NCBI GenBank assembly: GCA_002238965.1
Contig: MPNJ01000001.1
Span: 186,001-250,000 of the forward strand
Length of the DNA stretch: 64,000 bases
Reading direction: 5' to 3'
Source of the DNA: Nitrospinae bacterium bin107
Lineage (GTDB): Bacteria > UBA8248
Shown here piece by piece: positions 51,776-56,933 of this stretch (the stretch's first letter is position 1; each line of letters starts with the position of its first letter). The notes under the pieces were generated by a model. That model was not told the DNA's origin and made no database searches. It saw only the letters and a program-made list of their open reading frames with translations. Position numbers and translations under genes: made by a program.

Positions 51776-52087
51776 ATGACATTTGTCATCGGGGAAAAAT
51801 GCCTGGGCGAGCGCTATGCGACGTGCGTGAGCGTGTGTCCCGTGGACTGCATGCACCCAGGCGAGTACAAGGGGGAACCCTTCCTGATCATCGACCCCGA
51901 GGAATGTATCGACTGCGGCGTCTGTCAGCCGGAATGCCCGATTGACGCCATCCTGGAGAGCGAAGACGACGATCCCGTATGGGCGGAAATCAACGCGGAA
52001 CTCACCGATGAATTCAAGAACAACGAGCCGGTCGAGCCGCGCCCGGCGAACGACCCGCCGCGAAGAGCAGACAACACGCTGCGCTAG
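51776..52087 (+). CDS. 7Fe/2[4Fe-4S] ferredoxin
   Basis: A 103-residue soluble electron carrier of the FdxA type. Cluster cysteines lie in CLGERYATCVSVCPVDCMHPG (N-terminal part) and ECIDCGVCQPECPIDA (CxxCxxCxxxCP), with an acidic C-terminal tail. The N-terminal set has a longer gap between first and second Cys, as in 3Fe-4S/4Fe-4S ferredoxins. AGGAGG precedes ATG. A rho-independent terminator follows. No obvious partner next to it. Confidence 0.92.
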   Translation: MTFVIGEKCLGERYATCVSVCPVDCMHPGEYKGEPFLIIDPEECIDCGVCQPECPIDAILESEDDDPVWAEINAELTDEFKNNEPVEPRPANDPPRRADNTLR

Positions 52088-52106: not shown

Positions 52107-52138
52107 ACACCGCGGTCATCGGGCCGCGGTGTTTTTTA
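52107..52138 (+). terminator. Rho-independent terminator after the ferredoxin gene
   Basis: ACACCGCGG and CCGCGGTGT form a nine-base-pair stem with an eight-base loop (TCATCGGG), followed by TTTTTT. A good terminator 20 bases after the stop codon; it also excludes the in-frame GTG at 52129 as a start of the next gene. Confidence 0.9.
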
Positions 52139-52200
52139 TTGCGCACAGGCGCATTTTCATACACCTCACCTTCCGGCAACGGGAGCACCCTGAGGAAGCC

Positions 52201-53181
52201 ATGGTCTTAAGCCCGCCCGCAACAGACGGCCCGCTCATCGCCGTCGCCGGAACGCGCTTCGGCCCCCCTACGGTCGAGGAGGAGGTACTCTCGCCTCTGG
52301 GTCCCCGCTTGCGTCTGGGCATGGGGGCGGACTCTGAATCCCTGGTCGAACTCTGCGCGGAGGCGGAGGGCGTCATCATCGGCTCGATTCCTACTTTCAC
52401 GGCCGAGGTCATCGCGCAACTGAAACATTGCAAAATTCTCGCGCGCGGCGGCGTGGGTGTGGACAACGTCGACATGGAAGCCGCAACAGCCAAAGGGATT
52501 CACGTCACTTACGTGCCGGATTACTGCGTCGATGAGGTGTCGGACCACGCCATGGCGCTCATCCTGTACTTCGCCAGAAAACTGGAGCAGGGGATCGCGG
52601 AAGTCAAAAAGGGCGGCTGGGGAATCGCCTCCTTGAGGCCGATAGCTCCGCTTCGGGGCGCGACGCTGGGCGTGGTGGGAATCGGGAGGATCGGCGCGAC
52701 TCTGGCCGGAAAAGCGCGCGCCTTCGGGATGCGGATCATCGCGCACGATCCCTTCGCGCCTGAATCCGTTTTCGAGGAATCAGAAGCCCGAAACGCCGCG
52801 CTTTCTCAAATTTGGGAGGAGTCGGACTACATCTCCCTGCACGCGCCCCTGACGCCCGAGACGCGCGGCATGGTGAACGCCGAAGCGCTCGACCGCATGA
52901 AGACGGACGCCGTTCTGATCAACGTGGCGCGCGGCGAACTGGTGGACGAGAAGGCGCTGGCCGATGCGCTCCAGAAAAACGCCATCCGGGGCGCGGGCCT
53001 CGACGTGCTCGAAGAAGAACCCCCAAGGCCGAATCACCCGCTGATCGGGCTCCCCAACTGCCGCGTCACGCCGCACAGCGCGTGGTACAGCACGGCCGCC
53101 CTGGAAGACATGAGGCGAAAGGCGGCGACCGACGTGTTGCGCGTCCTGCGAGGCGAGGAGCCGCGCTATCCCGTGAAATAA
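52201..53181 (+). CDS. D-isomer-specific 2-hydroxyacid dehydrogenase (SerA-like catalytic domain)
   Basis: A 326-residue NAD-dependent dehydrogenase. The nucleotide motif is LGVVGIGRIGATLAGKARAFGM; the catalytic Arg lies in VLINVARGELVDE, the Glu in GLDVLEEEPP, and the His in TPHSAWYS. There is no C-terminal ACT/regulatory domain, so it is not a full phosphoglycerate dehydrogenase. Start at 52201 has GAGGAAG upstream. The product (a 2-oxo or 2-hydroxy acid) is unknown. Confidence 0.92.
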   Translation: MVLSPPATDGPLIAVAGTRFGPPTVEEEVLSPLGPRLRLGMGADSESLVELCAEAEGVIIGSIPTFTAEVIAQLKHCKILARGGVGVDNVDMEAATAKGIHVTYVPDYCVDEVSDHAMALILYFARKLEQGIAEVKKGGWGIASLRPIAPLRGATLGVVGIGRIGATLAGKARAFGMRIIAHDPFAPESVFEESEARNAALSQIWEESDYISLHAPLTPETRGMVNAEALDRMKTDAVLINVARGELVDEKALADALQKNAIRGAGLDVLEEEPPRPNHPLIGLPNCRVTPHSAWYSTAALEDMRRKAATDVLRVLRGEEPRYPVK

Positions 53182-53208
53182 TCCATACCGCAGAAACAAT
53201 CTGCCACG

Positions 53209-54057
53209 TTATTTTTCAATCGGAAAACCGACGATGCTCCCCCACTCCGTCCATGAGCCATCGTAAATCTTCACGTCTCCGTATCCCAGCAGATACCGCA
53301 TGGCGAACCAGACCAGACTGGCCCGGTGGCTGAGGCGTCAGTAAAGCACGAGTTCTATCTCGTCATCGGCCGCGGCGCCCGCAGCGCCGAGAATCCGCGC
53401 GAGTTCCCCTTCGTCCTTATAGGTGTCGTCCTCGTTCAGCAGTTCGCGGAAGAACAGGTGCGCGGCCCCCGGTATGCGTCCGGCGCGTTCGGCTCCGTGG
53501 TCGAAACCCGGCGGCGGCATCACCCGCTCGCCGCTGTATTCCTCGGGCGAGCGCACGTCGAGCAGCACCCTGCCCGGCGCGCCGAGCTTCTCGCGAATAT
53601 CGTCCCTGCCCACGCTCAAGACCTCGCCCCCATCCGGCGCGGGGTGAGAGACGGCCGCAGCATCCGGAGCCTCACTCGAAACGGGCATCCCGTCGGCAAC
53701 CCACTTTTTCTTCGAGCCGTCCAGGAGCTTCAAATTCGAAAAACCCGCCATCTTCAGCACCCAGAACGCATAAGTTCCAAACTGCACCGGCTCGCCGTAC
53801 AGGACGATTTCATCGTCCGGGCCGATCCCCATCTCGCCCAGACGCCCGGCCAGCGCTTGAGGCTTAGCGAACGCGCGGTCCGTCTCGTGCCAGAGCACCC
53901 CTTTCCAGAACCACCAGTGCGCGCCCGGTACGTGGGCTTCGCGGTAGGAAGCGTCGTCACTAGCGGATGAGACCTCGATGACGTGGAGATTCGGATTTTC
54001 CAGGTTTTCTGAGAGCCACGCCGTCGAAACGAGCGTGGAATTATCTGCTTGCATCAT
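53209..54057 (-). CDS. Two-domain rhodanese with in-frame TGA at the active-site Cys (candidate selenoprotein)
   Basis: Sulfurtransferase of 282 residues if the TGA at 53338-53340 is read as selenocysteine (residue 240). Domain 1 (about 10-120) has no catalytic Cys. Domain 2 has the usual [14 protein letters not shown]. The predicted catalytic strand reads ELVLY-[TGA][19 protein letters not shown], where relatives have a Cys at the TGA. After it the family sequence continues without a break ([18 protein letters not shown]) to a TAA at 53209. A shortened 239-residue protein would lack the active site, and a pseudogene would not keep 42 perfect codons. The hairpin at 53304-53325 fits a bacterial SECIS in position. 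Start ATG follows GAGGG. Confidence 0.82.
53304..53340 (-). promoter_or_regulatory. Candidate bacterial SECIS element
   Basis: Directly after the TGA (53340-53338) come 12 bases, then CGGGCCAG and CTGGTTCG, which form an eight-pair stem (two G-U) around a six-base loop TCTGGT (53312-53317). The loop starts 20 bases after the TGA, within the spacing known for bacterial SECIS. The loop G position is not an obvious textbook match, so the fold needs a dedicated model. Confidence 0.5.
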
Positions 54058-54106
54058 GTCTAAATACCCTCACAAGAAAAAGACTATGAAAAGCGTGTCA
54101 GGAAAA

Positions 54107-55531
54107 TCATCCGCCGCACATGGGCGGCTTCTTCCGCCGGATGTCCGGCGTGGCTTCCTCAAACGCATGGGACACCTGAAGCACGCGGGCTTCCTCCCAG
54201 GGCGGTCCCACGATCTGCACCGACACGGGCAGGCCGTCCGCGCTGAAGCCCGAAGGCGCCGACATGACCGGGAAGCCGAACAGGTTGTAAGGGCCCGTCT
54301 GCGGTCTGCCGAGGCCCGTGAAGGAGAGCTCTTTCCCGTTCACCGTGCCCATCTCCGTCGCAACGGGCCCCGCGGGGCAAGGGTAGCCGGGCGCCAGGAA
54401 TATATCGATCTCATTGAACACACTCTCCATTTCGCGGGTGAGCGTGGGCCGTTCTCTCATGGCGCGCGCGTATTCATCCAGCGTCACGCGGCTCGAAACT
54501 TCCAGGCGCTCGCGGACGTCGTCGCCGAATTTTTCGGGATGCGAGGCGAGTCGCTCGCGGTGAACCGACGCCAGTTCGGCGCTGGCGATGATGCGCCGCA
54601 CCTCTCTCATCCGTTCGGCGTTGGGATAACGCACATGAACGACCACGCCGCCCAGAGCCTTCATGGTCTCTATTGCATCATCAAAGCCTTTCTGCACCGA
54701 AGCGTCGTTTTCCGGGAGATAGAGGTCCTCGCAGATGCCGAAGCGCATGCCCCGGACGCCCTCGCCTATCAGGGCGCAGAAATCGGGCGTTTCGCGATCC
54801 TTGGAGCCAGCGTCCGCCGGGTCGTAGCCCGCCATGGCCTGGAGCATGATGCCGCAATCGCGCGCCGTCCGCGCGAGCGGGCCGGCATGGTCGAGCGTCG
54901 TAGAGTTCGGGAAAATGCCGCGAACGCTCACGCGGCCGTACGTGGGTTTCAGGCCCATCGTGCCGCATGCGCTCGCAGGCCCCCGGATGGAGCCGCCCGT
55001 GTCGGTCCCCACCGCGCCGGGGCACATGAAGGCCGCGACCGCCGCACCCGAACCACCGCTCGAACCGCCAGATACCCGCTCGGGATTCCAGGGATTGCGC
55101 GCCGGGCCGTAGTGGGGGTTCACCGTGGTGGAGCCCGCCGCGAACTCGTGCGTGTTGCATTTGCCGACGATGACGGCGCCCGCCTCCTTGAGCTTTCTCA
55201 CGCACTCGGCATCCGCCGCCGGGACGTTTTCGGGGAAGAAGCTCGACCCCTGCGTCGTGAGGACGCCCGCGGTATCGATGATGTCCTTGATCCCGACCGG
55301 CACGCCGTGCAGAGGGCCGCGGTAGCGGCCGCCCTGAATCTCACTTTCCGCCTTTGCCGCGTCCTCGCGGGCCTCTTCCGCGCACACGGTGATGAACGCG
55401 TTGAGCTCGGGATTCAGTGCCTCGATTTGCCGCAAATGCGCGTCCACCACCTCGCGCGGGGAGATTTCCTTGCCCTCGATTTGTTGGGCAAGTTCAGATA
55501 TTGAGAGAAAATTCAGTCCATCGGCGCTCAT
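54107..55531 (-). CDS. Amidase-signature family amidase
   Basis: A 474-residue amidase of the GatA/amidase-signature class. The Ser-cisSer-Lys triad is visible: Lys in GVPVGIKDIID, cis-Ser in SGGSSGGSGAAVAA and the nucleophile Ser in GTDTGGSIRGPA. Hydrolyses a carboxamide to acid and ammonia. No GatB/GatC partner, so it is an independent amidase. ATG at 55531 follows GGAGGTGAAA; a longer frame adds four residues. Upstream is the sarcosine-oxidase-like gene, transcribed away from it. Confidence 0.93.
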   Translation of the reverse strand: MSADGLNFLSISELAQQIEGKEISPREVVDAHLRQIEALNPELNAFITVCAEEAREDAAKAESEIQGGRYRGPLHGVPVGIKDIIDTAGVLTTQGSSFFPENVPAADAECVRKLKEAGAVIVGKCNTHEFAAGSTTVNPHYGPARNPWNPERVSGGSSGGSGAAVAAFMCPGAVGTDTGGSIRGPASACGTMGLKPTYGRVSVRGIFPNSTTLDHAGPLARTARDCGIMLQAMAGYDPADAGSKDRETPDFCALIGEGVRGMRFGICEDLYLPENDASVQKGFDDAIETMKALGGVVVHVRYPNAERMREVRRIIASAELASVHRERLASHPEKFGDDVRERLEVSSRVTLDEYARAMRERPTLTREMESVFNEIDIFLAPGYPCPAGPVATEMGTVNGKELSFTGLGRPQTGPYNLFGFPVMSAPSGFSADGLPVSVQIVGPPWEEARVLQVSHAFEEATPDIRRKKPPMCGG

Positions 55532-55781
55532 TTTCACCTCCATTCCAACTGAGTGAATTACATTCCGCTTCCACCTGTTTGATGAAACGCAAGCTTACCA
55601 CGACAAGGCGGCTTTCGCCTTCTCGGGAGGGGGTTTCTTGTTCTTTCAAGCCCTAGGCGCACTTGGCGGAATCACGCCGATTTGCTATGGATGATCCCAT
55701 ATAGATGATATGAAAAGGTCTGCCCGCACCGTGTAAGCGGAAATCTTGGTGCGCTACCACTATCCCACGAGGTCATCCCCC

Positions 55782-56933
55782 ATGAACGGCGATACTTACG
55801 ACGCCCTGGTCATCGGCGGCGGAATCAACGGGCTCTCGGCGCTCTATCACCTGAAGCGCCTGGGGGCCGAACGCGTCGGGCTGGTGGAGCGCTTCGAGAT
55901 CGGCCATGACAGGGGCAGTTCGCACGGCGCCGCCCGCGTGACGAGAAGCGCCTACGTCGCGCCCGAATACGTCCGCCTCATGCAGTGGGTGCACAAGGAG
56001 GAGTGGCCCAGGCTTGAAAAAGACTTGCGAAAAAAACTCGTCTATTCCAATCCCGGGATATACACCGGGCCGCCGTGTGAGCGTTACCATTCCTACATCC
56101 ACGCGGTCACGCAAGAGGGCGTGGACGTGGAGCTTCTCACCGCGGACGAGGCGCGGGGGAAGTTTCCCCAGTTCACCTTCGAGGGCGCCGAAAGCGCCCT
56201 GCTGGACAAGACGGGGGGTTTCATATCCTCGGTAGAGGCCATCGAATCGCTCGCCGCGCTGGCGCGCGAGAACGGCGCGCAAATCCATGAGAACACCGTC
56301 GTCCACGGAATCGACACGGCGTCTGACCCCGTAAAGGTCGAGACGAGCGGGGGGACTCTCGAGACCGAACGCCTCGTCGTGGCGGCGGGGGCGTGGGCGA
56401 AGGGTTTGCTCCCGTTCCTGAAACCCAGTCTCAACATCGCCCGGCAGACGGTAGGATACTTCACGCCCGAAGACGATCCGGACGCCTACCGGCCCGGCCG
56501 TTTCCCGGTCTGGGCCTACAGGGAGCAGGACGAGAACAACCTGTTCTACGGAATGCCTGAGTTCGGGCGCGCGGGCGTCAAGGTGGGCCGTCACCTGAGA
56601 GTCGGGGTGGATGACGACCCGGACAACCCGCCCGACGCCATCGACCAGGAGAAAATTGACGATGTGAAGCGCTTCATCGCGCGCTTTTTCACCTGCAAGA
56701 ACTGGACGCTCGCAGGCGCGGAGCACTGCCTCTACACCAACGCGCCGAACGAGGATTTCATCATCGACCTGCATCCCGAGAACCCGCGCATCGCGTTCGG
56801 GGCCGGCTTCTCGGGCCACGGATTCAAGTTCGGCCCCCTCACGGGAAGGCTTCTGGCCGAACTGGCGTGGGAGGGGAAAATTTCCATACCCGATGCCGAA
56901 CTGGCGAGGCGTCTTTTTTCACTCAAGAAATAA
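55782..56933 (+). CDS. Sarcosine oxidase / N-methyltryptophan oxidase-like flavoenzyme
   Basis: A 383-residue monomeric FAD amine oxidase of the SoxA/SolA (DAO) family. The FAD fingerprint ALVIGGGINGLSALYHLKRLG opens the protein. Mid segments include RLVVAAGAWAKGLLPFL, and the C-terminal AEHCLYTNAPNEDFIID carries the Cys that binds FAD covalently in monomeric sarcosine oxidase. GFSGHGFKFGP ends the fold. Oxidises an N-methyl amino acid with O2. The start at 55782 is favoured by GAGG upstream. Possible link to the HyuA/HyuB and amidase genes nearby. Confidence 0.9.
   Translation: MNGDTYDALVIGGGINGLSALYHLKRLGAERVGLVERFEIGHDRGSSHGAARVTRSAYVAPEYVRLMQWVHKEEWPRLEKDLRKKLVYSNPGIYTGPPCERYHSYIHAVTQEGVDVELLTADEARGKFPQFTFEGAESALLDKTGGFISSVEAIESLAALARENGAQIHENTVVHGIDTASDPVKVETSGGTLETERLVVAAGAWAKGLLPFLKPSLNIARQTVGYFTPEDDPDAYRPGRFPVWAYREQDENNLFYGMPEFGRAGVKVGRHLRVGVDDDPDNPPDAIDQEKIDDVKRFIARFFTCKNWTLAGAEHCLYTNAPNEDFIIDLHPENPRIAFGAGFSGHGFKFGPLTGRLLAELAWEGKISIPDAELARRLFSLKK

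Follow-up and report, generated by a model that had tools for sequence, protein, structure and literature searches.

The window, the 64,000-nucleotide stretch of DNA analysed here, carries on its minus strand a gene for a two-domain rhodanese (53209..54057; 282 codons, stop TAA) that is interrupted at codon 240 by an in-frame TGA (53338..53340, minus strand), very probably read as selenocysteine (Sec), at the position of the catalytic cysteine. Read directly on the minus strand, the frame runs from an ATG at 54057..54055 through the TGA at 53340..53338 to the TAA at 53211..53209, with 239 codons before the TGA and 42 more after it, giving a protein of 282 residues if the TGA is U and of 239 if it is a stop; were it taken as a stop, the active site would be lost. 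A putative bacterial SECIS hairpin (53307..53327, minus strand) follows, with a 9-bp stem and a loop, GUC, that starts after a 19-nt spacing from the UGA. The surrounding genes, given as context only, are an amidase gene just upstream of the rhodanese (PF01425; 54107..55543, minus strand), a 2-hydroxyacid dehydrogenase gene that lies tail-to-tail with it (52129..53181, plus strand) and, adjoining the dehydrogenase, a gene for a ferredoxin-like 4Fe-4S protein (51776..52087, plus strand); the pairing of dehydrogenase and ferredoxin is also present in the genomes G003 and G012.

The Pfam family PF00581 (Rhodanese) matches the protein in two stretches (8.4e-29), the better of which (residues 152–273) contains the TGA, and the protein shows the two rhodanese domains with the catalytic residue in the second that define COG2897/SseA-like proteins. 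The earlier note on this DNA had placed the TGA at the catalytic cysteine, had described an open continuation of 42 codons and had proposed an alignment of the full protein to rhodaneses; our direct reading returns the same lengths, and phmmer aligns the protein over its whole length with the Thermus rhodanese 1uar (E 2.2e-59), with U on the Cys of YCRIAERSS. This alignment and the Cys codons of the relatives described below bear out the placement. The C-terminal active loop reads U-R-L-S-H-R, and both this loop and the C-terminal motif YDGSWTEWG are retained, the latter invariant. An AlphaFold model computed from 29 aligned sequences, with U entered as C, has a mean pLDDT of 87.9 and a pTM of 0.89 and puts residue 240 in a loop between a strand (235–239) and a helix (243–256). 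Its top PDB match in Foldseek is again 1uar (TMq 0.86), and the predicted fold is that of a rhodanese. Scores stayed below the cut-offs of the models for 3-mercaptopyruvate sulfurtransferase (NF008557; 90.8 bits against a curated 250), ExtH (NF040901; 48.6 against a curated 200) and rhodanese-related (seleno)protein (NF041203; 36.9 against 115).

The TGA is a shared feature of the genus. Our phylum sample comprised 18 genomes, 7 of them from the window's genus, and six of these seven carry the rhodanese gene, with a TGA in all six copies that cover the codon (L105–L109 and L122); in G008 the gene is divided over two contigs, and no match was found in G009, which is 79% complete. Identity to the window rhodanese is 89–92% for the other four full Sec copies and 86–87% for the partial one. 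Outside the genus, the 10 copies of the CRLSHRA type that cover the codon, from 8 phylum genomes, all have TGC. In total, 102 loci of the family were fetched (L025–L126), and 100 of them, all except L118 and L124, cover the codon: among these matches listed, the 6 same-genus copies have TGA and the other 94 have TGC or TGT. Most of the 94 Cys copies are distant relatives (<45% identity), L025 and L114 encode identical proteins, and the count takes one place per locus, leaving out second places in L072, L080 and L081, which are all Cys. The relatives taken were the best 80 out of 588 confirmed ones, and rarer Sec copies may therefore have escaped notice elsewhere. Within these bounds, the Cys-to-Sec swap at this rhodanese appears limited to one genus, among the matches listed. 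The pattern is the one used to recognize bacterial selenoproteins, that is, an in-frame TGA aligned with a Cys of homologues and conserved across several sequences.

The remaining Sec machinery, which the earlier note had stated to be outside the window, indeed sits on other contigs of the genome (4.37 Mb in 60 contigs, 95.9% complete), with the rhodanese on contig C8, selA and selB on C14 and selD on C32; neither an Rfam scan nor a tRNA scan gave a hit in the window itself. A tRNA-Sec with anticodon UCA scores 75.9 bits against a cut-off of 47, in a search that is also positive for 5 of 14 control genomes, and selA (576 bits against 267.9), selB (385.7 against 242.25) and selD (333.9 against 125) all score above their curated cut-offs. 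The search for this machinery had been set beforehand as the main test that could refute a selenoprotein; with all of tRNA-Sec, selA, selB and selD in the genome, with TGA throughout the genus and with a Cys codon in the fetched relatives, the Sec reading of the earlier note is supported. Beyond the genus, SelB exceeds its cut-off in 14 of the 18 phylum genomes and in 7 of the 8 other-genus genomes with a Cys CRLSHRA-type rhodanese. SelD (L019, G000:C32:206681-207643), too, is a Sec protein whose catalytic position is encoded by TGA (AGGUGSK in the window genome); all 14 phylum copies found carry this TGA, and the synonymous depletion that follows it is weak (0.167 versus 0.20–0.23). None of the 17 formate dehydrogenase matches listed has an internal stop.

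Other readings of the codon can be judged against these data. A real stop, leaving a 239-residue truncated protein or a decaying gene, would agree with the use of TGA as a stop in this genome. Three of eight neighbouring genes in the window terminate in TGA, and in three of the six rhodanese copies (L106, L107 and L122) the frame itself ends at TGA where the other copies have TAA or TAG; TGA has thus kept its stop meaning and is not recoded everywhere, and on this ground we rejected global recoding. A protein truncated at codon 240, however, would stop short of the catalytic residue and of the invariant motif YDGSWTEWG, and the frame is conserved on both sides of the TGA in the same-genus copies. 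Among the five full Sec copies, nonsynonymous codon pairs amount to 2.9% in codons 241–282, compared with 9.9% in codons 1–153 and 8.1% in codons 154–239, and the part after the TGA is therefore under constraint at least as strong as the part before it. Given this constraint we rejected a dead gene, and we regard a real stop as highly improbable. A sequencing or assembly error would need to alter just the single base that separates TGA from TGC or TGT, but the same TGA stands in six separate genome records whose nearby codons differ; this contradicts an error, an explanation we rejected and to which we assign a negligible chance. Decoding of the UGA by a different tRNA, as Trp or Cys for instance, is compatible with the sequence alone, yet it is scarcely plausible in a genome with tRNA-Sec(UCA), SelA, SelB and SelD and at a residue that is the catalytic Cys of relatives. 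Selenium very probably replaces sulfur at the active site of the window enzyme.

The candidate SECIS hairpin spans nucleotides 11–31 past the TGA and is identical in all six Sec copies, and consequently offers no covariation. For bacterial SECIS elements, a review (PMC13188914) gives a loop of 3–9 nt, a stem of 4–16 bp, a G at loop base 1 or 2, a distance of 16–37 nt from the UGA and an energy no higher than -7.5. Applied through our own script, which requires an unbroken stem, these criteria pass all 6 Sec copies, 7 of the 94 Cys copies (among the matches listed) and 51 of 600 single-base shuffles, with the six Sec copies being close relatives that count as about one event. The folding z-score of the 50-nt region is only -1.3, and 17 of 200 shuffles fold as well. 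Synonymous change in the Sec copies drops to 0.075 in codons 241–256 from 0.184 in codons 154–239, and in the five orthologues the 11-codon run 244–254 is the sole such window of 272 without a DNA change. This observation is weakened by the Cys copies of genus g6, which are depleted to a like degree (0.119 downstream of the codon versus 0.320 upstream); since these Cys copies show depletion as well, we do not count it as proof of a SECIS. The hairpin is consistent with, and supportive of, a SECIS role, short of proof. A comparable 7-bp hairpin already forms at this position in two Cys copies, L115 (G003) and L120 (G010); that of L120 passes the SECIS criteria and that of L115 is without the loop G. 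One may speculate that a ready-made hairpin in the Cys versions eases the Cys-to-Sec swap.

Dehydrogenase, ferredoxin, amidase and an FAD oxidoreductase are kept as neighbours in the genus as far as the contigs reach; the gap between amidase and rhodanese is at most about 55 bp in five of the six same-genus genomes and about 2 kb in G004. The Cys rhodanese of G012 faces the same dehydrogenase and ferredoxin tail-to-tail; in G003 the gene order is identical, with about 1 kb between rhodanese and dehydrogenase. The dehydrogenase lies about 8 kb from the Cys rhodanese in G017, and neither it nor the ferredoxin was found in two G010 stretches and in G015; the neighbourhood is thus seen in 2 of 6 other-genus stretches, several of which end at contig edges. 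Cys relatives surround the Sec group in the trees, which suggests the direction Cys to Sec, and the observations would fit, without proving it, an in-place swap through a single base substitution, from TGC or TGT to TGA. The gene neighbours (amidase, FAD oxidoreductase, dehydrogenase and ferredoxin) gave no pointer to the sulfur substrate. A promoter scan found none, and the interval 53100–55800 holds 8 terminator-like sites where 2.4 are expected. Co-transcription of the rhodanese with the amidase is unsure because two of these sites, overlapping on the minus strand, lie at 54128–54111, where the amidase gene ends.

A PF00581 search of the genome also returned a second two-domain rhodanese, on contig C29, with an in-frame TGA at the same functional spot, the catalytic Cys (TAYUQTGYRAAHG; L154 1453-2289, G000:C29:77078-77914, plus strand). 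Its closest copies carry TGA in 16 of the 18 phylum genomes, the exceptions being G011, where the codon is TGC, and G012, where only a distant Cys copy was found. The SECIS criteria pass 16 of 16 Sec copies, 0 of 14 Cys copies and 157 of 1600 shuffles, and a 17-base hairpin recurs unchanged in 15 of the 16 Sec copies and with one altered end base in the other, while codons near the hairpin vary. In a tree of 65 proteins, well-supported branches force two separate changes for the two Sec groups, and Sec therefore very likely arose at least twice in rhodaneses, as judged from these sequences. The UxxG group is the more widely spread, and the UxxS group, to which the window gene belongs, is confined to the genus in our sample (among the matches listed). 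Counted over the BLAST-aligned span, this second gene has no Cys in its 7 same-genus copies and 2–3 in the 9 Sec copies from other genera. The Cys paralogue in the window genome (L200) has 3 Cys including the catalytic one; a Cys paralogue is located on C60. Elsewhere in the genome, a 543-residue open frame (L156, G000:C34:4999-6426) gives four consecutive rhodanese-domain matches.

What, then, might the window protein do? We think it probable that the UGA is decoded as Sec with help from the hairpin and that the product works as a sulfurtransferase through its Sec. The UGA at codon 240 would be decoded by SelA, SelB and tRNA-Sec, assisted by the hairpin 11–31 nt downstream, to yield a tandem-domain sulfurtransferase of the COG2897/SseA-like kind. 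The Sec selenolate would accept sulfane sulfur from a donor such as thiosulfate, a persulfide or a polysulfide, hold it as Se-S(-) and transfer it to a thiol or another nucleophile outside the protein. All five full-length Sec copies are free of cysteine; for comparison, eight neighbour proteins hold 41 Cys in 2415 residues, 8 of these in the ferredoxin. As the protein contains no cysteine, sulfur release would have to come from another molecule, for example thioredoxin or a low-molecular-weight thiol. We take the absence of cysteine as support for an Se-S intermediate that an external thiol resolves; it may also reflect chance or selection against internal Se-S bonds. From Sec insertion and the SECIS role of the hairpin through to substrate and activity, this scheme is one that we infer, and a sulfurtransferase holding sulfane sulfur on selenium is the most likely product.

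The same active site could instead serve a redox job, with the Sec reducing, or being oxidised by, a peroxide, polysulfide or oxyanion and being recycled by thioredoxin. One review (PMC9312934) describes a redox function as the presumed role of most selenoprotein families in prokaryotes, and the catalytic Cys of MST/TST is described as forming a sulfenate that is reduced by thioredoxin (PMC3276061). The cysteine count bears on this proposal in two ways: a protein with no other Cys fits a site resolved by an outside reductant alone, but it also has no resolving Cys of its own. With the rhodanese active loop and YDGSWTEWG preserved as well, we consider a redox role unlikely. A selenium carrier, in which the rhodanese would bind selenium at its Sec and feed SelD, finds a precedent in the Cys rhodanese reported to bind selenium in vitro as a perselenide (PMC9369223), and in a genome that makes Sec and has SelD. 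Against it, the rhodanese is not near selA/selB or selD, which lie on other contigs, and the eight other-genus genomes have a Cys CRLSHRA-type copy; as seven of these eight are positive for selB, Sec at the rhodanese site is evidently not needed where Sec is made, and a carrier role is very unlikely.

Returning to a Sec-dependent sulfurtransferase, we tentatively hypothesize, as a possibility we would not yet favour, that two rhodanese branches swapped Cys for Sec independently and, with no other Cys in the genus, became selenium-only sulfurtransferases. If true, the Se-S intermediate would be untrappable inside the protein, a distinct sulfur-moving chemistry, and the genus-limited swap beside Cys sister genera with Sec machinery would form a clean pair for testing the contribution of Sec. 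The locus bears on why evolution swaps Cys for Sec, as it offers a genus-limited swap, Cys sister genera mostly with SelB (7/8) and a second, wider Sec-rhodanese in the same cells. Among the open-licence papers listed by our searches, we came across no biochemical work on a natural Sec-rhodanese.

Predictions of Sec in COG2897 rhodaneses date back to 2005, when three sequences were reported from the Sargasso Sea (PMC1088965); related entries exist in GOS data (PMC2398784), and reviews of 2022 and 2026 list Sec-rhodaneses as predicted selenoproteins (PMC9312934, PMC13188914). The window gene is a further example, sharing with the COG2897/SseA selenoprotein described in the first of these reports a predicted Sec, a downstream SECIS-like hairpin and widespread Cys homologues. 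The two reviews distinguish several rhodanese forms, form 4 being UxxG and form 1 UxxS. Compared by motif only, the URLS of the window gene is UxxS and differs from form 4 as given in PMC13188914; the UxxG of that form occurs in the C29 gene (UQTG), which belongs to a clade apart. By the same motif comparison, form 1 (WP_010941598.1 in the table of PMC13188914) agrees with the window gene in having UxxS and PF00581. Thermus thermophilus rhodanese 1uar resembles the window protein in whole-length sequence and in fold, with Cys at the site. Cys rhodaneses of the CRLSHRA type, from sister genera and from assemblies of Nitrospinota UBA8248, Dehalococcoidia, Rhodospirillales and Burkholderiales, are 51–62% identical and have the same active loop but differ from the window gene in having TGC or TGT at the site. 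New relative to these systems are the Cys-to-Sec swap within the UxxS clade, which appears limited to one genus (among the matches listed), and a second, predicted Sec-rhodanese of the UxxG type in the same genome, with TGA in 16/18 phylum genomes.
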